DNA from: Atopsyche davidsoni | Lineage: Eukaryota > Arthropoda > Insecta > Trichoptera > Hydrobiosidae | Reading direction: 5' to 3' | Length of the DNA: 64,000 nucleotides | NCBI GenBank assembly: GCA_022113835.1 | Contig: JAILWY010000001.1 | Location: 16,050,501 to 16,114,500, forward strand | Part shown: positions 1 to 61,771 of the stretch, one piece after another | How positions within the stretch are numbered: the first letter of the stretch is position 1 | Layout of the letters: the number at the start of each line of letters is the position of its first letter | Program-made: the position numbers and the translations under genes | Notes under the pieces: model-generated | The model's database searches: none | What the model was told of the DNA's origin: nothing | What the model saw: the letters and a program-made list of their open reading frames with translations, nothing else

Positions 1-913
1 TATATTTTGGTTTTTTACATAGTTATATTTATTAAGTTATTTACAGCCAAACTATATCTCACTAGTATTTTTTGTTGAGAATCACTTGTTGAATTATGAT
101 GTACTTTATTATTCGTTCCAGCTTAAGATTTCTCAAAATTAAATTTTCAGATTTAAGGTTCTTTTTTTTCTTTTTATTAATAAGATTATATTAAATATAA
201 TGTATTAAAATAAATTAGAGTAAATTGGCGTGGAATATTTTGTCCCGCAATTTCTCAACAAATAATGTGAGGATAATTTGAAATATGAAGCGTAAATTAG
301 AAAAATTAATCAGGATTAATATTCTTCGGAGTGAATTATTGAGCCCTCCCCGAGTGCTTTATTATGGCAGTTAATTTCAACAATTGCGAACTGTAAAATG
401 TATAATTACTCGATTCGATTCAAAACATTTTCAAAAAGAATAATTCAATAGATTTTTTTTAACCTAAAACGATAAATTTGCTTTCATTGTTATTTATTTA
501 CTGCTTATTACAGTCTTTTCTCTTCATTTTAGACATGACGAATATCCCATATGTTAAAGACCCCAGACTCAAAATTATAATTTGTGTTTATTTTCAACAA
601 TATAAAGAAGAAAACTATTATCAGATAAGTCTATAAAAGTATATGTTCAATTTTTCTTCTTATAATATAAGTTAGCATTCAATTTTTTTTCAAAATCAAT
701 ATGAAGCCTATAGTGGGTTTGTAACTCGACGAATCGTAGTGTATTTACAGATCCTTCGAATTAATATATATTTTGGCCGACTTTATGATTCAGCAGTTTG
801 CTCGTGTCTAGACTGAAGCTGCTTTGAGCTACCTCAGATATTTCGTGCATTTGACTGAGTAATCAGTCGGAGGTATTCGAGGTTGCTAAGCATAGTTATG
901 TTCTTGTTCCCAG
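1..913 (+). other. Intron of rdgA (5' part outside window)
   Basis: AT-rich sequence without a convincing exon. It ends in a pyrimidine-rich tract and CAG at 911-913 directly before the first rdgA exon seen here. I saw no mobile element in it. Confidence 0.7.
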
Positions 914-1043: not shown

Positions 1044-4000
1044 GTAAGAAACCACCACAGCTTATTCATTCACCCCTTAATTCATGTTACTTTTAAAGGT
1101 TCGCAGGTGGCAGTAATCTCTTTTACTAAGTAATAAATATCCCGCGTATCCATAGTATATTACTAGTTTATATAAATAGTATTAAGTAATCAATATTTTT
1201 TACAGAGAGTATTTGGTGGAATTCCATTTTAATATTTTGAAGTATATTTTCGTATTAAGCATAATCGAGATGTTACAAGTTAAGTATTATATACTGCTCG
1301 GCGCTCTCGATACTTAATTATTTTGACTAACTGAACTCGGTTCAAGTATTTAAGCTAACATTTCACTCGAGTCATCAATTTGTATTATATTTATTATATA
1401 ATCAGCATTCTTGGGTAGGTTCGATTATTTTTAACGATGGGATAAAAAAATCCCAGTCTATCCTCTGAAGCAAATCTTTGTTTTATTTAGCAATGACCAA
1501 ACATAACGTTAATGCCATAGTTCATGCTTTTCGTTGTTTTGTAGTGACGCTCTAGTACTAAGTCTACAGAATACAGTGTCATGAAGCCGGCCGGAACCGG
1601 ATGCGAGGCAGCGAGGATTCCCCCTCCCCTCCCCTCTCCATCCCCCGTATGGCGCTAGGTCTCTTCCAGCCGGAAACGCTTTTTGGATTATTTTAGATCA
1701 GTCTGTAAATACCCGGTTTTATCTCGTGGAGCGATGTGTGATAAGTGACATGACATTATTTCTTGATTTTATTTTTGCTTTTGGCTACTGCCTTCTTAAC
1801 ATAATTCAGTTGATGCGTGTACGTTTATTTTAGACTTCACAAATAAGGGTCTTTTAATATTTTTTTTAAATACAAAATTAAAAATTTCCAAGCAACTATG
1901 TTCTTCCTAGTCAGAATACCGCTGTGGATGTTCCTTTCATTTTACACGATACGTATCGTTTGCAAGGCACACAGTTCTCTCTGAATAAGAAATATATTCT
2001 AAATAAATAATTTCTCGGACGATATGGAATAACGTCATGCAACAGAAAGATATTTTCCTTTGACATCACAGAACTATTTCATTTATTGATGCAAATTTCC
2101 GTGAAACTAGAGGGCACTCAAACAGTGGCGTAGATAAAACTGACTGGCACAGTGTCTCAAACTAACACCGATTCGATTAATGTGGATGTTTCCCAAATGA
2201 CAGTGCATAAAACAAAAACTTATTAATTATTCAAATAAAAATAATAAAAAATTAATAAAACAAATGTTTATCGTGTTATACTCATCATCATCATCATCGT
2301 AAGGCACGAAGGTAGCAAGTGGAATATAAGCAAATGAGCAAGAGGCTGTGTTGATATTTACCTACTTGACATTCAGTGCACCACTCCGATATCCCATTCG
2401 TTAGATATTGGTTAGAGGCTCACTCCTCCCAGCGAGCGCGCGGTTTCGAACCACAGGCTTTCATATATGTACATGTTATCGGGGAGTCGGTTGATTCATA
2501 TTGCCTCCCAGACTAATCGAGACTATTTGCATTCGCTTGTGGTGATCACTCTGATTTGAAATGTACGTACGAAACAACATACAAGTTCGTGCTCAGGCAT
2601 TCTTTTGGAAAAGCACATGATGCATGTAAATTAAACGAATGTAAAAATGGTCGTATTTTTGATACGCCACAGATATAATACTTACTAGCTACGCACGCGT
2701 CACTAGTCAGATTTAAATAATTTCTTTATGCCACAGTATCGAGTGGACTGATCCGCCATTTTCTTTTTTTTTATATTTCCGAGTCTAATGACATTCCGCT
2801 GCCCCGTATCCAGTTTCCCCGCCTTGTCTCTTTACCATTTCGCCCCGTAATCTTATTTCTCCCTTATAAAATATTCCATAATTAAATAATACCTCTCGTA
2901 TACACTTTAACGTCCTAAAAGGATCCGAAATGAGATTATCTCATCTTCAACTATTCAAAGGACTATTACTACTTGGGTTTCAGAAAAAACGGTTTTCAAT
3001 ATTTCTTGGAAGGTCCTGCTACAAAATTTATTGAAAAAAGCTTTGTTAGAAGGCGAATTGATATCACAAAGTAAACATAGAGAGCATTTTTACATTGTGT
3101 CATATTATCGTTAGATCAATTTCATTATAACTATCTATTTTAAAATTTGAATTTAATGCTAGCGTAAAACTCGAAATAGATGAAGTTGTAAAATTATTTT
3201 TTTATAATTAATATGATATTTATCCGTTTTGGGAGAGCGTATCATGCATTAAAAAGTATAAATATACAAAAACCTATTTCATTAAATTATAGTTTTTTAA
3301 TGAAATTATAAAAAATGTTATTCTGTTATAGTTATTAGAAAAGAGATGATGTGAACTTAATTATTTTAAATACAGAAAATAAGGTAAATCATTTTTTTAT
3401 CCTGAAAGATATTTAATTTTTTGGGTATGTTTTTAATTTTTTTTACAATACAAAAATTTGTATAGTACTTAAAACATATAAACGATTATTTTTATGTAAT
3501 TAAATATCACTTTGAGCATCTGAAATAAGTATAAAAAGAGCAGTATTAGTTTTTGCATATTCTTATGAAGTCGCAGTCATTGTTGTTCTAAAGAAGCAAG
3601 TTTTCCTTTATACCTGCGCAGAGCTCTGGACGCGCCCAATAAAAAAGATAACAGAGTGTTCTGAACCAAATCTTCCGGAAGAGGAAGTTCAAAAGGTTTT
3701 GCGGTCGGCAGGGGTGACGGGGGTGGGGGTGGGGGCAGGGGTGGTTGTAGGAATGGGGGTAGGGGTGGGCGTCAGACGCAGCTCAGCTACACGAACCCCA
3801 CACCCAAGACCCGCTAATTGCTTCATATCCTGTCCAATCCGCTTAGCGAGTTTTGACACTCTTTTACCAACTATCATGAAATTTCTCTTTTAGTGTGATT
3901 CCGCCCATACATATATATTTTTATTTCTAAGAAAGATCTTTTGAATTATGTTTACATTTTACATTCCAACTGTATCGTTCGGTTCAGCTGTTTTAGCAAG

Positions 4001-18700: not shown

Positions 18701-21700
18701 GTCCAACTCTTAAGGATTCGGTTATTTAAAATTAATTTAAATATTTTATTTTTTTTACATAAAAAAAAAGATGTTCTTTGTAAGTTTAGACTTAAATTGA
18801 GCTATAAGAATTTTTGATAATAAATGTTATTCAATATCATTAATCGTTCCTTTTTAAAATTTTCACAAATAAGATTATAAAAAAATATATCAATGGACCG
18901 TCACAATTTGCAGAAGCACATCCTGAGAAGTTTAACTCGAGAATCCGCAACAAGCTATTCTACGGCACAGCGGGTGGGAAGGACCTCATGCAAAGGAAGT
19001 GGAAAGGCCTGGCCGAGCTTGTGACCCTGGAGTGCGACGGGCGAGACCTCACGCCCAAGCTCAAGGAGCATCGAGTGCACGCTATTGTGTTTTTGAACAT
19101 TCCGAGGTATATTCACTTCATAAGTAATTCATCTTATGACATTCATTGTAAGTATTAACATCTATGGCCATATTTTTTCAGTAACTGGCCACACTAATCT
19201 GCAACAAAAATAATCTCTCTTGCCATTCTTATTTCTTTATTATTTATTGTATTTCTTTTGATTTTTTATTCATCTTACTTTCAAAATTAAAGTGTGTTCT
19301 CCAGATAACAGACAAGTTTTTCTGGAGAGGTTTTACATGTGAATGTTCATTTTGCAGCTACGGTGGTGGAACACACCCTTGGAATAAATCAGGAGGAACA
19401 TCGGAACCTTCCACTGAAGACGGAATGATAGAAGTCGTCGGCCTAACTACTTATCAACTTGTTAGTATACTGTTTATTAGTAAATGCTTGTAGTATAATA
19501 TTAATAAATTATAATTATTTAAAATGATTATGTTTTTTAATAAAAAAAATTTGCAATTAAAATATTTTTGAATTATTTTCCAGCCTTTACTCCAAGCGGG
19601 AGGTCACGGAACGTGCATAGCCCAATGTAAAACAGCCAAAATTATCACCTCTAAAACCATTCCCATGCAAGTTGATGGAGAAGCCTGCAAACTGGCCCCA
19701 TCCATAATCACCCTTTCCAGACTGAACCAAGCCACCATGCTCGCCAAGAAAAAGCCTGGTCGTGTCAATGTGCAGTAAGTAGCAATATCTGTAGCTGTAA
19801 GAAATAAGGTGTAACGAAATTTAAAAATTCATGCAAAATATTTGATGATGCTCTAAAACATAACAAATTACATAATTTGATAACAATATACTATTAACAA
19901 TATATCATACAAATTACCATACTACTATTAAAATGAGTAGTAATCCAGAGTTTTCAAAACAGTCAGTCTGTAAGTTTACATATTTTACACAGTTCGACTA
20001 ATCAATCTGTCTTATGATCTTTTTTTTACAGACAAACAGCATTAGAACATTTGAAGTTCTCCATTCATTTGATAACAATGTCAGACTACGAACAACACCA
20101 TTACGACAAGGATCTTCTAAAACAAACAGGTAAATAGTGAACATATTAAATAATGAAAAAACTATTCAGAGTTCAGTTGGCATGGAAGTCTCTTGTTAGA
20201 GACAAGTAGAGTCCGGTGGTTTTCAACCCTCTGATTGTGTATGAAGAATCTTTCTACAAAGTTTTAACAGTCAAACTAACATTCACTCTATCTGGTATTT
20301 ATCTGGTCAACTAGCCTTTTCAATTAGCTCGAGTCTTAAAAGAAGCATTATAAATTGTAAAAATTGAAGAGTATTATTTTTTCTTTCAGCAGAGTGTATT
20401 GGTAATATTGAAGTGAATCCCATCGCAGACTTGGAGCAAGTGAGAGGAATTATAAACAATTTAGTCAAAGACAACCCAAGCTTGCCAACTCTATCAGCTG
20501 ACTGGTGTTTCGTGGACTGTAAGATCATATTTATTATTTCCTTTTTTAAGAACTGCTGATAACATATCACAAACATTGCCCTTGTGCTTTTTTATGTTGA
20601 ATATATTTAACATCAATATTTTATTTAAAAATATTTAGTGTTATTCCAACTTTTTTTTATTTTAAGAACCCTGAGGCAGAATGGCCAACCAAGCAAAGCT
20701 AGCATTGGTAGCTTCAAATTACAACAACTTGGAATAAAACTGAATATTTTTCACTAAAAATATAATGGATTCCACCGAGTACTTTCTGTCAAAAATATTA
20801 AATACATTGTAACATTGTTGTTAAAGTAATAAATGTGTTTTCATTTTATAATGTTGCATTTTCTAATTGAATGTATTCCTACAGCTTGCACTGCAGAGAG
20901 GTTCTTCCGCGTTGACCGTGCTCAAGAAAACTTACATTATGTGTCAGACATCGGTCACGAATGTCTCTTCATCCTCGACACGGGGGTGGCGCCATTGACT
21001 CCAGACACGGAGACGACCACGACTGGTCCTTCTGAATCTTCAGTGGGTCCTATGTCTTTTGATACAACCACCGGGTTGTCCATCTCACTGGACATCTCCC
21101 ACAGCATGGACACTCCAAGCGCTGGAGTCTCTTTGGATGTACCTGACCATTCACATAACAGGTATGGCTCGATTTTCAAGATTTTAAATTGCAAAAGAAG
21201 AAGATGTTTTACTCTTCAGTGTTAAAAAATATTTCGCACCATCAGATATTAGAACCATTCTGACATTCCATTTTGTCCTCGGTGAACATGTTTGATTTGT
21301 AATACTACATATTTATATATATTAGTCAAACTCGCAGAAGACTACTTAATATCATTTGTAGTATGTATTGTAGCATGAAGCTCAAATTAAAAAAAAATTA
21401 GAATAGAGCTAATTTAAAAAATATTAATAATCTAGCCATTTGACTGACCTATCATATTTGTTATATTAAATTTTCATTGGTTTAGTGATATATATTATTA
21501 AGATGGATTGTGTTAAGTCTCATTGTTGACTTCTAATAAAGAAAATGTTTAAAAAAATTTCAGTGAATCTGGAATAGGCAGTCCAGCAAAAACATCAGAA
21601 CTCTTGTCACCGACTACTCCACTATCTCCGATGACTCCCGGCGGTCCACTGCATCCTGGGGTGGGCTCCCTCCATTTGGGAGGCCCTCTTCCCCTTTCAG

Positions 21701-35361: not shown

Positions 35362-35575
35362 TATTACCAGACACTAAAATAAATACAGATATAAACCGCG
35401 CCGTGAGTATTTCCCTACTTCGGTCTCTTGGATGGAGCAGCGTGCATGACGTGCCGGCAGACGGGGACTGCACAATCTCGAGTAGCGAAGATTCGTGACG
35501 TTCGTCCTCTATTGTTTCTGTGCTAGCTGGCTGGTGTTGCCACACGTAGATTTTAATTACCCACATTCATATTTT
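35362..35575 (-). promoter_or_regulatory. QARS 5' UTR and probable promoter
   Basis: Short GC- and CpG-richer stretch just upstream of the QARS ATG, including TGACGT-like words, ending where the hammerhead-bearing repeat begins. No TATA box or start site can be fixed from sequence alone. Confidence 0.4.
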
Positions 35576-35815
35576 AATGATTTTAAATAAAATATTTTTG
35601 TGATTTTTACACATGTTTTATTATATTGGTGACCGGTTTCGCCAACCTTTCAAGTGGGCACTGTCATCGTTTGATAGGGTTTGATTGTTTTTTTAATAAT
35701 GCTTACGTAAAAGTTTGGCGAAATTTTTCCATGTGAAAAAATCACAAAAGTATTTTATTTAAAATATGAATATGAAGTTTCTCCGAGTACTTTCTGTCAG
35801 AAATATTGATTATTT
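35576..35815 (-). mobile_element. Hammerhead-bearing Penelope-like element, copy upstream of QARS
   Basis: Imperfect inverted arms of about 30 bases (ATTTTAAATAAAATATTTTTG at about 35580-35600 in pieces, and its inverse at about 35738-35768) flank a core with GACCGGTTTCGCC at 35631-35643. The right edge holds the family word AGTACTTTCTGTCAGAAATA. No clear target duplication. Confidence 0.65.
35629..35670 (-). ncRNA. Hammerhead-ribozyme-like core
   Basis: On the minus strand: CGATGA, a stem of about six pairs with one mismatch (GCCCAC/GTTGGC), GAAACC, GGTC. The CUGAUGA box is damaged (the T4 equivalent is missing), so this copy is probably inactive. Confidence 0.45.
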
Positions 35816-41799: not shown

Positions 41800-41841
41800 A
41801 CAGTATAATGCCAACACGAAAGGTTGGCGAAACCGGTCACC
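41800..41841 (+). ncRNA. Hammerhead-ribozyme-like core, degenerate
   Basis: Reads TAATGCCAAC, a 7-base loop, GTTGGC, GAAACC, GGTCACC. Stem II is a perfect six pairs and identical to the 58703 copy, but the CUGAUGA box has decayed. No inverted arms remain. Confidence 0.45.
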
Positions 41842-44800
41842 AATCAATACAGAACCTCATACAGTACTTTCTTCACCCTGGGTTCCCCAAAAAGTAACGT
41901 TACAGAAATTCTGCGTTTTTGGGTTCTATGTCACTTTTTTTTCTTGAAACTTCCAACTAATCGGTCCCAGCACTGAAATCATATTTAGGAATTTTTAAAA
42001 TAAAATGTGACATAACACCTGTGAACGCAGCATTTTTACAAACAATGTCCGCCATAAACTATGAACACATTTGACAATATTATAATTTTTAAGAAGAATG
42101 GCATAGTTACTTGTCTTTAAAATAATTGTGCAAAAGTTTCTAATCCCAAAAATAATGCATTTGATCAAGTAAGTACTTATATAAAACATTCATTTTAATA
42201 TTAATACACATAGATTTCCTGCACATGCATTTGGATTAGCACTACGGATTTCTAAGTAATATGTTTTTTTTAATAAATGCAAGGTTTATTTTTTTAAATA
42301 TCTTAATATGAAAGCAACTCTTTCTTCTTCCGCGACACCGGTGGAAATTGAACGTACACCCCTGATGGGCTGATGTATCAAGGTTGCTGGATGAAGTCCT
42401 CTATAGACTTTGCGACACACCGACAACTGACCAACAAATTGCTACTACGTTTATTTTTTCGATAAAAATGGCACAAAAAATGATTTGTCACACTTGAATA
42501 TTTCACGATTCATGATGACGTAGAAAAAAATTCGGGGATCTTTTCCGTCGTTTCATTTGAAAATTTAGGAATATAGAAGACAATAAACCTGTATGAGTGA
42601 AAAGTGCGGATTTATTAAATTGCTTGATAATATTCATTGGTTAAACCCTTTTTTGCTGTTAAAAAGGTGAGGTAACCGCAGACCATGAAACGTCAATATG
42701 GCGTAACGGCGTATCGCATTGTTGTACATCAAAGTAATATCCTTGTTTTGTGTGAGCTAGTCCTTTGTGTGAACGGGCACAGGAAATACCCTCATAAATT
42801 TCGCTTAATCTAAGGGTAGGAGCTACCTATAAATATAAATAATTATTTTGTTTAATAATTTATAATATATATGGTGTCTTCAATACAGTGAAAACGAATT
42901 TATACAAGGAATTATCTTCAAAGCGATAATATTCTTTTTGTTTCTAATATTATGTACATATTTTTAAAAATATACTAAAATTCTTGAATAATAATAACAA
43001 AAAGCTACTTTTTATTCGTCATTTTGCAAGACAAACATATATACATTTTAATTTCTTTTAGTCATTTGACTGGTTTTCATAATTTTCAACTCTGTGAGAG
43101 TTTACTTTGCACAGCATATTTCAAATAACTCTTCAATTTATTTATGATTTGAAAAGGTGAATCATAATAATCGCTAGTTTGTCGATTGACGCACCAAAAC
43201 AATCATCTTCATTCCCGTCGTCATTGGATAGGTACACTTTGTGTTTGCTTTTATAAAAATGGCTGGCTTTTATTTGTTCCAGTAGGTATCCCTGAGATCG
43301 ATAGAAGGAGAGTGGCTGAAGACAAGAGAAAAAAAATGCGAAGTAGTTCGATTGTAATCTCCAATCGTTGTTAGAATATGTGATAAGAATCGGATGATTC
43401 AGCAACAAACGAGTTCATACTGTATCAACCGTCCGATCATTCGGACACTTTAGGGAGAAAACCCATTAGAGTATGTCGCAGTTCTATCATATCTTCATTG
43501 GATCTTTCCAAGGGCAAGTGATTGTGATTTTCTCGTTAAAAAGTGCTCTTTCTACTATATTTGTCACACCTTAAAAACGGTTTTAGTAACATTGGGCAAA
43601 AATCATAACTCGTCAGATCTATTCATATAAGAAAAAAAACTGGACAGACATACCATATGAGTCCTTCCAAATCATCGAATTTAATAAGTATAAATAATAT
43701 ATCAACTGTTATTGGTTCATAATCGTAGTAAGTTTTTCATTTGATCTACACATGATTTATACGATCGAAAAGTCGTTTTCTATCGATTATTCCAATTTAG
43801 GAAAGGCTTTAATAATTTGACCCAAATATTATCGGTAATTTCCTTTTATAATAACTACTTGTAAGTCGATCTGCAAATACATAAAACCCAAATACGAAAA
43901 TGCGTGTATTATAAAGGATATGCAATGTTTACGTGTTCAATATATTAAGCTTGTGTTCTAGGCCCCTCCAATTCAGCGCACTACTCCGAATTAATCTGAC
44001 CGTTGGATTATCGTGTCACTTTAGGATACGACCTTACGTGGAAATAAAATAAGACAAACAGCCAGTGAAAAACATCAGAAAGTGATACCAAACACATACT
44101 GGGCTAGGTGGGATTGGCACAGACTGTCAGTCAATAGAAGCTAGAGAGTACGAATATGGATGTTTCCACGTTCTGAATTTTATACCTGATTGTAGCGAAT
44201 TAAATATGATCGTATTTAAAATAAAACACATGATCCGCAATGAAAAAAAATAATTTTTAATCAGTTAATCACGTAATCATTATTTACGTATCAATTAATA
44301 ACACAGCTGCAGAGAAAGCGATAATAAATTACGTATACGAAATTGGTCATACTTGCATGAAAATATATTTTACGTGTTAAAAGTGAAACGAAGAGGCTGA
44401 CAATAAAACCGCGCTTTGGCTTTGCATAGTGATGTATCCCAATGCGATACAGTTGCGGGAGAAGGTTTATTACATATTAGATATTGGCTAGATAACGATA
44501 TAAGCCATTATACAAGTTTGTAATGTACAGTAAAACTTGCGCAACTTGCGTTAACCAGGTACTGCAGAGTTGGAAAAAACGTTATAATGGACACAAATAC
44601 CCATTGAGTTATTACGTTGTTAGTGTTCGGTGAACCTACTAGGAGACAATGAAGTTCTTTTCAAAATTATTTATTTTTCATCAAAACCCAACCTTTTCAA
44701 TACAAAAGCATTTTGCCAAAAGTGGAAACTTATACTAGGGTATTTCGCATAACTGCTTTTCCCAATTTCCTTAAAAGCAAGAAATTTTTCTAGAGCGGGC

Positions 44801-48400: not shown

Positions 48401-51400
48401 ACTGAAGATATCTGTAAAAATAAACTCTAATAATTCGTTTTAGTATATGTAATATAATTAGAATGTTAAATTATGCATTAAAATTGTTGCATTATTTGTA
48501 TATTGCGAAACCAGACAACGGTGATTGGTAAAGAGAACTCGTGAAATGTGAAATTCTGAAAACACCGCACAGGCTAATTGAGTTTTTGGGGACCTTTGTG
48601 TTTATTTTATAACAACGCAATACGGAATGAATATATTTACAATAAAACAAGGAATCTATAAAATATTTAATATTGCACAATTTAGGTCAAATGCATTATT
48701 TGTGAAATGTTTTGCTTTTATTCAGTGATTTACCTGAGGGGGAGGGAAAATTTAAAAAATATTTTAAAGTTATAATGAGTAGAATCAATGATCATTATAC
48801 GTGTGCAATTTAATGATAAGTTGATTTTGATTGACTTATAAAGGATAAAGAATTAGGGACCGTCCCAAGTGTTAACAATTTTAAGTACGCCTCTGTTTTT
48901 GTGTAAATATTTTTTATACTAACTAAAAAATAATATCCAAAATACAAATTGAAACTATTCACATTTTATGGCTTCATCAAAATGTCTTTCTGTCTTATTA
49001 TATTTTTTTTATAAAGTTACTATGATCCAAATAGAATAATACAATTTTATTCTAGCTACTTATATTCCAATAAAGTATAACATAAAATAAAATGAATACA
49101 TCAGTAAACAATAATATCTTTAATATCACCCTCGAGACAATAATTTTTCGGAATATTTTGCATAGACGTCGTAAAATGGAAAACATACTAAAATGTAATT
49201 ATTTCCGGCTTAGTGTCGCTACTTGCGGTGATTATATTTCTATTGAAATAAGAAAACATCCCCGAACGTAAAGAAGCGGAGCTAATTCTAATAGCTTGTA
49301 AATAGTATTAAGTAGCTTAGGTGTGGTTAGATTGATAGACAGGACAGAGTATTGAGGGCTTAATTTTGATTATCTATTCTCTCGCCTCAAAGAAACGAGT
49401 TTAATTAAAATTATTCATAAATGCTCAAAAAGCCGGTTAAATTCATATTTGAATTTTCCTATCGCTTCCTTGTAAATTTACAGAATAAAATGTGTTCAAA
49501 ATGTATTCAATCTAAGAATTTGAGCGAAATTATTTTTGTCTTAATAACTTGGGATATATTTTAAATCCGTAATTAATTCATTGAAAAAACATTATTGTTC
49601 ACTCTTAAACGAATTACCACCTTTTCCGTGCTCTTCTTTATTTTATAATACCCCCTTCACCTCATCCCTTGTGGGTCGTACTATCCCGCATCCCCCGGTA
49701 ACAGTGAAAACATGTGATCAGCTGTGTGTAACTTATATAAGCGTTGTTAGACTAGTGACCCTTATTTTTTGTGTAATCCGAGATTCGTAGAAAATGACCT
49801 CGCGTATTTTTGCCATGTGTAAGAATTGATACTTACCTTGAACTGTATTCCACGTCTCTTGTTGGAAAATATTTTATTGAGTAAATAAGTTCAATCTACG
49901 TACTTATTGTCTATTTATGAATACTTTGATTATGTAAATAAGAAAATATGGTAATGTTATAAAACTTTTGAATATTACTTTTGAATGATCAATACTTGTT
50001 GAAAAAAATGTAGCCTTATTTCGCAATTCAATATATTGTTCTCTAAGATCAACAATCTTCTTGGGTTATTGTCTTCCAGGAAATTATTGATGGATTAATC
50101 AGGACTAATTAATTTGTTTGTTTGTTTCGTTCAGATTTAGATAATATTGAAAACAGATATTGTATATTTGTTTATGGTTGAACGTTTGTAAATAAACATC
50201 TGAATGTTTCGTAGAAATTAATATATTACTTCTTGAGTTGTAAATATACACAGCAAAATTTGAGACGAATTAAATTATAAGTATGTACAATAATTTAAGC
50301 TTCATTGAATTAGACGTAAAAAACGTATACTGTTACTAATAAATAATTCAACATTGGGGAATTTAGAAATGGAATAATTAAATATGAAACAGTTTTAGGC
50401 TCTTGTGAGTCAAATTCACCGCAATGGGTTACAGGAAAATATAAAAATAGTAAATATGTTACTTCAATATTTTTTTATAGCTTAGTTTAATAAAAAAATG
50501 TATTAGCGGTATATATTTTTTTAATAAACGGAAGACATTCCGGGGGTTGAGGAAACCTTAACCATACTGCCTTATAAAGTAGAAGACGGCAATAAAAAGG
50601 CAAAACATAAAAATCAAATAAAAGCAATAGCGACTGTATCCACTTTGACATATCTCCGAGTATTGGATTTTTGAACACAAGGATTGATTTTTCATCCATT
50701 TGAACCAGGTCACAATTTTAATCTTTAACACAATTAAAAATCAAAAAAAGCGATCTCAACTTCATGAATTTATTAACGGCAAACAAGTAATAAATAGTAT
50801 TAATATTTGATTATTTATTTTAACTAGGCCACATTGTTTATAAATTTAATATTTTTGACAAAGAGTACTTGGTGGAATTCCATTTTAACTTTTTTTTTGA
50901 ATAAAATATTCACATTGTTTATGTCATCATACCAAGAACAAATAACGTTAGAAGATCTTGAGATTTCTTGGGTGCCATGCTGCGTAGTGGTTTTTATCTT
51001 CGTCGAAAGATAAAAACCACTACAAAGCATAACACACAAAAAAATACTAAGATCATCTTATAAAAAAGACTGCCAAAACCTACGAACACATTGAACAAAA
51101 AGCGTGTTTATCAGAATGTATGAAGGCCCCACCTTTCCGCTGTTGGAGCCGAGTCTGCGGCGCCTCTTGTTGTAGTTGATCAGGAATTTGAGGCGGTTGC
51201 ACTCGTCGAAAGAGCACTTGTCAGTCACGGAGTACACCAGGATGAAGGCCTCCGCCCACCGGATGTTGGCCTCCAACGTCAGGCACTCGCTCTCCTACCG
51301 AGAGGAAACGGAAATCGTTACAGAAGCGACGTTGTTAATCAAACCACCTAGTAATCACAAGATATTATTAGAAATATATAAAATTTGTAAAAATAACTTT

Positions 51401-58362: not shown

Positions 58363-58653
58363 CTGTAACAAACAATTAATCCTCATTTTATACTTATCTT
58401 TTATATGTAGTATTTAAATAATCGATTAACATATGAAATGATGAGAATAGCACAACAAACTTTTCTTTCGACATCGGTGAAATTTGAGCCTACACCTCCT
58501 TCACGTGTGCATCGATAACAAAAACTTCACAGACATACCGAGTGCTTTTCTCTTATATAAAACGATCTTAATTTGAAAAAAATTGTGATTTATCTGTATA
58601 CATCAAGGTATTTAATGCCGGAGACGTATCAATGCAACACTGTTATAGACTCA

Positions 58654-58822
58654 ATATTTTGAATAAAAATACTTGAGTGATTTTCCACATTTTTGTTTTT
58701 ATTAGTGACCGGTTTCGCCAACCTTTCACGTTGGCATTATCAAAAAATCACTTAAGTATTTTTATTCAAAATATTAAAATGGAATTCCACCAAGTACTCT
58801 CTGTCAAAAATATTGAATTTCT
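58654..58822 (-). mobile_element. Short Penelope-like element with hammerhead core and target duplication
   Basis: A 13-bp direct repeat TGTTATAGACTCA (58641-58653 and 58823-58835) flanks a 169-bp unit. Inside, 32-nt inverted arms (58653-58684 and 58744-58775, one mismatch) enclose the hammerhead-like core. The right part has the family word GGAATTCCACCAAGTACT. No coding capacity, so it must be mobilised in trans. Confidence 0.8.
58703..58750 (-). ncRNA. Hammerhead-ribozyme-like core
   Basis: Minus strand: TTGATAA, a perfect six-pair stem GCCAAC/GTTGGC, GAAACC, GGTC with ACTAAT beyond. Order and spacing fit a minimal type I hammerhead with tiny stem III, as in Penelope-like elements. Two core bases differ from CUGAUGA. 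Confidence 0.5.
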
Positions 58823-61771
58823 TGTTATAGACTCATCATTATAAGGTCAGAGATGTCATCATTTTATGTGTATATACTCTGTGTATACTTCATCTTTGAC
58901 AACAGAGATGTCTTTGCTTCAATACGAGACTCTCTTTTTTATATAGTTGATCGAAAAAAAAAATGTTCTTTCACTCTTGAAAAAAATGAGTGTAAAATGT
59001 AGGTCCATTGAATAAATTTTATGATAAAACGAGATGTGTATTATGGTCGCAGAAATTTTCACTCAAATGGAAAAACATATCATAAAAAGAAAAACAAGAT
59101 AAAGTATACTTCCATTCTGCCGACTAGGGTTCATTCTTTCACCCCTATTTACAGTTTTCACTGTAACCTTTAGCCACCATCTAATACGAAGCCTTTTTCT
59201 GTCAACGTCTGCCTTCGTTTGTCTCAAGAGATTCTAATATAAAAATGTATACCCAACACAAGGCTTTAAAAAATACCCATGTAAGGCATTTTACATTTAT
59301 TTTTAACGGGATCGGATTATGTTCAATATGCTAATGGTTTTATAGTATAGTAGATCGTAAAAAAACAATAAGTTATAAAAGTGAATATATAACTGCGGAT
59401 TTTCCATAAAAATATTTTAAAGAATTTTCAAGCAACGGAATAAAATAAAGGGATAAAAACATTTATTTATTTTCATTTTTAAATGTACAACGATGGTACG
59501 AAACGTACTTAGAGCATTCTTCTATTTAAAAACAGTATAAAAATATCAAAATTTTAGTTTTTTTTGTTGTAAAAACATAATATTATATCAATGGTTCTAC
59601 AAAATTCTACCAAGTATTAAAGAAACCCAACGAAAGAATCCAACCGACTATGCCCGAAGAGGTATCAGAAAAAAATTGATGGAAAGAATAATAAAATAAT
59701 AGAATAAAATTCACTGACGAGTTATTTAAATAAATATCGAATACTAAGTGTTTAAAAAAGTATATTTTAAAGAATTTATTTCCATTAAATAAAAATCTAA
59801 CATTAATTCACACTTCTGGAAATCTGTGTTCGGTAAATCGAATGTCTAAAAATTCTGAAATATTTCTTGCATTAAAACAAGCTGTCGGGAACAGGAGTTT
59901 GGAAGTCAAATAGTAAATATTGGATAGACATCCACCATGCCTGACATTTGAATAATTGAATAGTTAATAGAGAGAGGATCACACATCTTCAAAAAGTATA
60001 ATCGTAAATCAGAAAAATCAATTAAAGATCATAGTAAAGTAATTTTTAAAATTGATTTGATATTAAAATCAATCGATTTGGTTTCTAAGTGACGAAAATA
60101 AAAGGTGAGTGTTATGGTTTTTAACTAGTGAGAAACAAGATTTTCGATGGGTTACGGCATTTGAAGACCATGAGAATAAATCCACGACCTATGAAACATC
60201 TAATACAATTTTAAAGAAATCGATTGACTCGTGAAACGACGGGAAAAATTCTCGAATTAGTTTACGACAATTGTGGGATTCGAGCGCTTCTATGGGTTGA
60301 AATTCTAACGGTTTCGGTGGGTTTTCTTTTCTCGTAGACTTTTTTCGTAGTTGAGCCAATTAATTGCATATTGTATACACAATGGACCTGAATGTGAAAA
60401 AAATATGGATCTATTAAAAATATTTCATAATAAATTTTGATGATGAAAAACCATGTTGATTGGGAGTTAAGTTAGAATATACGGACGAATAAAATTAATT
60501 TTATTTCTTTTGTAAACGGCAATGAACTGCCGTAAACGACGAAACTCGTTTATAATAACGCCGTTTAAAGTAACGGCCGATTGAGACGCTCCGTTAATTT
60601 TGCTCAATTCTCCAGGGAAATATCTAGAAAAGATCATTAAAATGGCGATCTTCTCCACTTTCCGCCTGACTTCCGGACGTCTCCGATTACAATAACTGAC
60701 GCTTAATAATTAGGATATAGCAGAAGCGCATCCTCGCGTAGCCAGCAAATTGCAAAACTTTTTTCAGGAAAAGCAAGATGCCCTTTAAAATCTTCAGGGA
60801 TTAAACTAAAAATTAATCCAAGCATTTTAAATTGGACTTTAAAGATAATATAAGGAAAAAGTTTTTTTTCAAGGAGAAAATATTGTTTTGCGTTTATATT
60901 TGTTACAGAAAAATCGTATTTTGTCTTCATGTTTATTGGATACTTTATCAAAACAATATAAGCGTTTACTTTTTACTTGTACTTACCGACTACTTAGTCT
61001 CAAGTTTAAATCAGAAACATCAGACTCAAAGCATTTTCTTTATTTTAAAATACAGTTCAAAGCCGATTTGGATCAGGTTATGTTAGGTCTATGGATTTTC
61101 ATTATAAGCACATACAATAAATTCAACATAGCGAGAGTTTAATTATGTAATTATGAGTTTCAAAGAATAAACAGTTAAAGAATTCAAACGTTCTTGTCAT
61201 GAGACAGTGCCGAGTGCTTTTGATTTAATATAGAGTGTAAAGCTAATCTGGATCAGTCTAGGTTGAGTCAGGCCAAGAGATATAAATGACCAGTAAAAAT
61301 ATAAAATTCTTCATTTTATGAGACCAAGCAGAGAGCTTGTGGTTTATTACAAAGTACGAACAAAGTGCACGGTTAATCTGGGTCATATCCGCTGACATAA
61401 AAATGTGCTTTTGTGTTTCTGATCCCACAAGGCAACAACGGGCCGCTTTTACTATGAATATTAAAATTCGACGGGCTACCAACTTCCCGGAAATGCGCGG
61501 CTCAGGCGAGCTATAACTATAATAATAAAGCTAGAACAACAATATGAAGCTAGATCTTTAGTATAATATATATTTTAAAAAATACTGCAAGTTCGAATTT
61601 TATTTGTCTTCATCGCCATATTTTACTGGCCTCGTGAATTTCAATCTGTGCGAATTCTGAAAAGGATATAATAGATCACTCTTCAAACGAGACACTCAGT
61701 TCTAAAATATTAATATGAGAACGGATATTTTTACAGCGGTGTAATGTGTAGTTTTCAAACGGATATATTTT

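Follow-up and report, generated by a model that had tools for sequence, protein, structure and literature searches.

To our knowledge, the mechanism by which Penelope-like retroelements (PLEs) integrate is largely unknown. In the twin priming of L1 elements, the two sides of a break both prime on RNA of the same kind and the resulting cDNAs become joined in inverted orientation, with microhomology at some joints and a scattered position of the second start. At the locus described here, by contrast, both starts are fixed, 48 nt apart, and the twin form predominates. Its closest described relatives are other PLEs. Elements of the Penelope/Poseidon type likewise have a head-to-head inverted pLTR reaching the start of the open reading frame (ORF) and a short target site duplication (TSD) (PMC3846280, PMC11167929), in Pen2a of Adineta vaga one inverted pLTR optionally carries a tail at its 3' end (PMC3846280), and PAc of Anolis has a hammerhead motif and two internal reverse transcription start sites bounding a tail (PMC11167929). 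The anole PLE protein cuts and extends both strands, with reverse transcription starting at two adjacent internal sites (PMC11167929). In comparison with these PLEs, leader-only is the common form of copy here, and unlike ends, counted in two families, appear as a near-rule. While the inverted form has been attributed to self-priming in Adineta (PMC3846280), our evidence speaks against such a snap-back.

The analysed window comprises 64,000 nucleotides of the trichopteran Atopsyche davidsoni (contig JAILWY010000001.1, positions 16,050,501 to 16,114,500, forward strand), and the insertion under study lies at 58641-58835. It is bounded by the direct repeat TGTTATAGACTCA at 58641-58653 and 58823-58835 (in the window, part of an 18-nt repeat family, 89%) and contains inverted arms of 32 nt at 58653-58684 and 58744-58775 with a complementarity of 97%. 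A first-pass annotation of the window had described both features and had read the direct repeat as a target duplication; we concur on all three points. The unambiguous part of the repeat is 11 bp long (58642-58652 and 58824-58834). Its first T and last A could equally be end bases of the inserted element, so that the final A of the left duplication is possibly q99 and the initial T of the right one possibly q147. In these sense coordinates, q1 is the first base of CACTCTGTTTGATAATGCC..., the presumptive hammerhead cut is q45/q46, site 1 is q99 and site 2 is q147, located 48 nt 3' of site 1 on the leader RNA.

Arm 1 (58653-58744, minus strand) corresponds to PLE leader cDNA from RNA site 1 (q99 at 58653) to q8, and arm 2 (58744-58823, plus strand) to cDNA of the same leader from site 2 (q147 at 58823) to q68. 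The opposed cDNAs meet at 58744 in an inner joint q8/q68 with one base in common. Outside the right arm lies a 48-nt tail (58776-58823, plus strand; q100-q147), present on one arm only and corresponding to the N-terminal coding region of the autonomous PLE; the inverted arms are therefore not terminal on both sides. As the copy ends at q8, it is without the TATA-like stretch that the autonomous element has ahead of q1. With its leader origin, tail and TSD, the window copy belongs to the PLEs and almost certainly represents an insertion of their leader. An older insertion of like type is present in the window at 35571-35666 (minus) and 35738-35809 (plus), with ends at q104 and q140 that are again unlike. 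More leader or tail fragments of this PLE lie at 1190-1241 (minus), 20721-20803 (plus), 41805-41854 (plus) and 50842-50906 (minus).

The autonomous parent was found at ~12.2847-12.2878 Mb of contig C1, where the leader occurs on either side of an 839-aa open frame (pLTR-ORF-pLTR; one locus, sampled as L126, L162 and L127). The suggestion of the first-pass annotation that the element is a non-autonomous Penelope relative is thus supported for the Penelope relationship but not for the lack of autonomy, since the same leader fronts the autonomous open frame. The reading frame is open in phase from an ATG at q63 across the tail and into the PLE protein. The L162 ORF (796 residues read) matched RVT_1 at E = 3.7e-11, and the RYVDD, GIY and YIG residues are invariant in an alignment of 11 sequences of relatives. 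The Pfam GIY-YIG model gave no match to the L162 ORF at E <= 0.1; relatives such as P0001 and P0008 carry PF01541, and the GIY-YIG endonuclease is thus assigned by motif and not by model. Protein relatives of the ORF numbered 347 at E <= 1e-10, including Lepidoptera; the best-scoring named ones were from Lepidoptera (Phthorimaea, Euphydryas), followed by locust and beetles, with fish and flatworm lower. A search for solved structures gave no match at E <= 0.001. For the GIY-YIG part of L072, at least 150 genome matches were obtained (150 of 591 candidates scored), nine of them within 839-aa frames. Many of these copies are 98-99% identical, which we take as a sign of recent PLE activity. A scan of viral contigs with the PLE alignment returned 20 loci of 27-41% identity that cover part of the RT only.

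Furthermore, the leader is abundant in the genome of 371 Mb. The 40-nt core occurs at 3,723 + 3,736 = 7,459 places with up to 3 mismatches and the 29-nt tail at 2,207 + 2,216 = 4,423 places with up to 2 mismatches. As the reversed controls of both searches gave 0 matches in the genome, the core is not a chance pattern. When the 195-bp stretch was used as a query, most of the best 40 of 894 candidates begin near query position 13 and finish near 177-189 (L040, unlike most, at 138), and the middle, where the arms meet, varies among the aligned copies. Among ~100 listed core matches, all on C1, opposite-strand pairs less than 500 bp apart were 14 times minus-then-plus, i.e. head to head, and 0 times plus-then-minus; one same-strand pair was present. 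Of the loci selected by their tail, 73 of 90 extend no further than 50 nt upstream of q1 within the fetched sequence, so leader-only copies are the common form. Tandem PLE leader pieces with a step of ~174 bp were observed at G000:C1:1685978-1686180 (L082/L083), a small satellite that may have expanded from a twin-type leader insertion. At four loci (L065, L066, L074, L076) leader copies are adjoined or interrupted by other leader pieces or foreign sequence, and from these insertion clustering may be common.

The outer ends were classified in two samples of this family, both from C1 and the start of C2 of one genome. In the tail-selected sample (90 loci in genome order, L071-L100 and L102-L161), BLAST detected an opposed partner at 71 loci. 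The partner's end falls at q90-112 in 63 of these and at site 2 (q135-150) in none. Checking the target duplications and hit tables by eye revealed further site-1 arms at L073, L079, L123, L134 and L140, and at L074 the site-1 arm is interrupted by another insert, which brings the combination of site 1 and site 2 to 69/90 (63 by BLAST and six by inspection). The sole like-like candidate is L139, with site 2 at both ends and an internal deletion, where no target duplication was found. Departures are L105, which starts at q86, and L072, which starts at q43 and where no TSD was found; L089 has only one arm and a 14-bp target duplication. L107, L126, L146, L152 and L153 extend upstream beyond the fetched stretch, L106 and L127 are internal leaders because ORF sequence directly follows, L082/L083 are the satellite described above, and the remaining loci were left unclassified. 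The core-selected sample, in which ends played no part in the selection, contained 30 loci or 27 distinct insertions after removal of three second hits to an insertion already counted. Both ends could be classified in 18 insertions, and all 18 combine site 1 with site 2; of the remainder, three are without a partner and six have one end elsewhere. The two counts are not independent, as six of the 18 insertions also occur in the tail-selected sample. In this one genome, the pairing of unlike start sites, one at each end, is thus strongly supported as a near-rule.

A second PLE family shows the same layout. Its core CUGAUGAUGACC..GGUCGAAACUAGUC occurs at 228 + 226 places with up to 1 mismatch, and by eye L012 and L091 are family-2 insertions with the same arrangement and a target duplication. 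In a DNA search, the best 40 of 2,509 candidates were all nearly full-length arms with tail. Opposed partners numbered 20, of which 16 end at q105-115 and 4 at q37-81, and all 20 lack the tail; this count leaves out the tandem array at 10.911 Mb of C3 and 19 tail arms without a partner row. In that array (G000:C3:10911058-10912600), about nine family-2 leaders follow each other in steps of roughly 180 bp. The ORF of a family-2 relative (L101, reached via the GIY-YIG family search) is 41% identical to the family-1 ORF, and the leaders differ. At L012 (C26:14744600-14746000), insertions of the two families nearly touch, the family-1 one starting no more than roughly a dozen bases from where the family-2 one ends.

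The inner ends behave differently from the outer ones. Statistics were calculated for 63 pairs, excluding 27 of the 90 tail-selected loci (19 without a BLAST partner and 8 with a partner ending elsewhere); L093 and L094, which share flank and joint and are probably a single duplicated event, were both retained. Site-1 arms end at a median of q4, with 31/63 within q-3..8, and tail arms at a median of q33, with 15/63 in this interval (Mann-Whitney p = 2e-4). The pile-up at q2-q6 coincides with TCACT, an initiator-like motif described from an Adineta PLE (PMC3846280), and we infer q2 to be the RNA 5' end on this basis. Nine site-1 arms and five tail arms extend further upstream, as read-through RNAs would produce. 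The tail arm passes site 1 in 61/63 pairs, so that one stretch of RNA was covered by two cDNAs, be it from two RNAs or by displacement. The 63 pairs contain 57 distinct joints, five of which recur in more than one pair, including q0/q23 in 3 pairs; apart from L093/L094, these could be recurrent joins or result from copying. Joins that carry no inserted bases and have no more than 10 bases in common number 20; in 8 of these the overlap is 3 bases or longer, compared with 5% of random joints, and 40/63 joins have inserted or unaligned bases. Equal inner ends were seen in 16 pairs with 9.0 expected (P = 0.005), and in 5 with 4.0 expected (P = 0.37) after removal of those pairs in which both arms extend to the RNA 5' end. 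Palindromic overlaps of 19-25 nt occur at L086, L124 and L155.

A shared flanking word of at least 8 bp, i.e. a TSD of 8-13 bp, is present in 46/63 pairs compared with 1.5% of shuffled pairs, and with words of 7-13 bp in 48/63 pairs the TSD length is not constant. In 37 flush, distinct TSDs of at least 8 bp, which were used for the analysis of base composition, a T immediately precedes the joint in 27/37 cases on the site-1 side and in 30/37 on the site-2 side, the flanks being 40% T. The leader RNA continues with AAAA past site 1 and AA past site 2. Thus, 1-2 bases of the primer could pair with the template, and the exact insertion boundary is uncertain by at least 1 base. Frangieh et al. report that the anole PLE prefers cutting at 5'-ATT-3' on both strands (PMC11167929); here the last three bases are ATT in 6/37 and 9/37.

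The minus strand of the window insertion contains a hammerhead-like core at 58707-58743 that reads UUUGAUAAUGCCAACGUGAAAGGUUGGCGAAACCGGUC. It comprises stem II GCCAAC/GUUGGC (58735-58730 and 58722-58717), GAAAC..GUC with the presumptive cut at 58707/58706, and the box UUGAUAA with U3 at 58743 and A8 at 58738. The minimal layout known from PLEs is present, as the first-pass annotation had stated, and so are its stem and GAAAC..GUC; the box is not CUGAUGA. An inability to form CUGAUGA/GAAA had been named there as evidence against its reading, and literally this is the case, with U3 and A8 in 84/90 cores of the tail-selected loci. However, according to Perreault et al., C3-G8 covaries to U3-A8 in several natural hammerheads, and such changes are active in vitro (PMC3088659). 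Minimal type I hammerheads of PLEs likewise consist of stem II, GAAAC and GUC with no real helix III (PMC6155905, PMC7229834), and an AUG overlapping A9, as described for the start codon of PAc (PMC11167929), is found in the present core as well. The core differs from minimal PLE hammerheads by U3-A8 in place of C3-G8, by one unpaired extra U ahead of stem II and by a stem I of 2 bp, or 3 where q48 is A (33/90 cores); helix III is absent.

The C3-G8 form of family 1 gave 0 exact matches among 40 with up to 1 mismatch, which instead had U3 with G8, C3 with A8 and once A3 with G8. The family-2 rows listed carry C3-G8, which is not a free test as all of them are exact matches to the C3-G8 pattern. 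In the computed fold, stem II has a pair probability of ~0.91 and stem I of 0.01-0.02, and the free fold favours another pairing. The Rfam search proposed with the earlier annotation found no hammerhead in the window at gathering cut-offs and none on 58600-58900 at E <= 10; the best matches there were microRNA-precursor models fitting the long palindrome, followed by weak matches to snoRNA, T-box and other models. The short stem I, the extra U, the free fold and the silence of Rfam would thus argue against ribozyme activity. The anole PLE ribozyme, for its part, cleaved only in the presence of protein (PMC11167929). Inner ends fall at the hammerhead cut (q43-49) in 1/63 site-1 arms and 3/63 tail arms without a peak, and hence hammerhead-cut RNA is not a favoured template. 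This agrees with work on the anole PLE in vitro, where ribozyme mutants leave insertion unaffected (PMC11167929). Despite this lack of an end pile-up, U3-A8 in family 1 and C3-G8 in family 2 are a hint of selection on the core pair of the ribozyme.

Taken together, the insertion reads, on sequence comparison, as two opposed copies of one leader of ~150 nt with ends at q99 and q147 and a usually variable joint inside a short TSD, and the copies appear to have arisen one by one in separate twin-primed events. We therefore regard the window element as a leader-only insertion that an autonomous Penelope-like retrotransposon made by twin priming, with a probability of roughly 85%. Points against this are the departures at L139, L105, L072 and L089, the family-2 partners ending at q37-81 and the tail arms of that family without a partner row, the slight excess of equal inner ends, the three long palindromic overlaps, the recurring joints and the tail arms that pass site 1. 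That a non-autonomous mini-element, MITE-like or a short Penelope relative, moved here as a unit of 169 bp is highly improbable, even though target duplication, inverted arms, high copy number and a few recurring joints such as q0/q23 would suit it. The earlier annotation's view that the element had moved as a unit is not supported by the count of joints: the window joint occurs once genome-wide, and joints vary while outer ends are constant, from which it follows that the window copy did not multiply as a unit. The tail outside the inverted arms and the lack of the TATA-like stretch also oppose the mini-element. A MITE or terminal inverted repeat element was rejected because of the 48 nt beyond one arm, the variable TSD length and an internal joint not common to the copies. 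We give hardly any credence to an animal retrozyme derived from circular RNA with a canonical type I hammerhead. The size of ~170 nt and the hammerhead-like core resemble one, but retrozymes consist of tandemly repeated units and have canonical helices (PMC7229834), whereas the two copies here lie head to head, stem I measures 2 bp, helix III is lacking and ends are not piled up at the cut.

More serious, though still very unlikely, is the snap-back proposed for Adineta vaga PLEs, in which one antisense strand folds and self-primes into a palindrome (PMC3846280). It would account for the head-to-head orientation, the long overlaps at L086, L124 and L155 and the slight excess of equal inner ends. 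A single template should, however, give equal outer ends, and these lie 48 nt apart in nearly all classified pairs and are unlike in the second family too, while the excess of equal inner ends vanishes without the pairs reaching the RNA 5' end. Twin priming might also be uncoordinated, with site 1 or site 2 picked randomly at each DNA end; in favour of this, the anole protein showed no difference in start site between strands in vitro (PMC11167929). About half of the core-selected insertions would then be alike, and 18/18 unlike has a chance of 0.5^18 = 4e-6 (calculated by hand) under independent, equal site choice. With site 2 at 0/71 BLAST partners and L139 as one candidate by inspection, we consider random choice as improbable as the mini-element.

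For the preferred twin-primed insertion, we infer the following RNA and protein steps. The PLE protein would make a staggered break in AT-rich DNA, and the 3' end of each side would prime reverse transcription within the leader of the PLE's own mRNA, at site 1 on one side and at site 2 on the other. The site-1 cDNA would tend to reach the RNA 5' end (~q2, the A of the initiator-like TCACT), the site-2 cDNA would mostly stop earlier, and the two would be joined head to head, sometimes via microhomology. As the RNA 5' end is only ~98 nt away from one start site and ~146 nt from the other, copying of a monomeric mRNA would yield only a short, probably dead copy, and full copies would require tandem read-through RNA. 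Beyond this, we lean slightly towards the view that PLEs insert by an obligately asymmetric two-headed complex that extends both sides of one staggered break on the leader RNA, always from unlike start sites (tail-less and tailed). If true, the element would be made as two opposed cDNAs, and this one asymmetric step would explain the tail and the inverted pLTR as well as the great number of leader-only copies.

Overall, the window insertion is ordinary in kind, being a PLE insertion, and unusual in what thousands of sister copies show. In the literature searched, with the original Drosophila virilis papers and Craig et al. 2021 lying outside its scope, no statement of a one-site-per-end rule was found; the nearest published one is that the Pen2a tail is optionally on one of the inverted pLTRs (PMC3846280). 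The two-site pattern fits the in vitro work on an anole PLE, where two start sites and both-strand extension are described and where, in the part cited, no account was found of their combination per insertion (PMC11167929). The thousands of short copies constitute a record of single insertion events in one genome, which indicates joint use of the two start sites, each at its own DNA end, and argues against a snap-back. In the monarch butterfly, most Penelope fragments are without the 3' part (3,029 vs 537), which has been read as the result of later deletions (PMC8848866). An alternative reading of this excess is that leader-only insertion would give copies whose 3' part is missing at birth.
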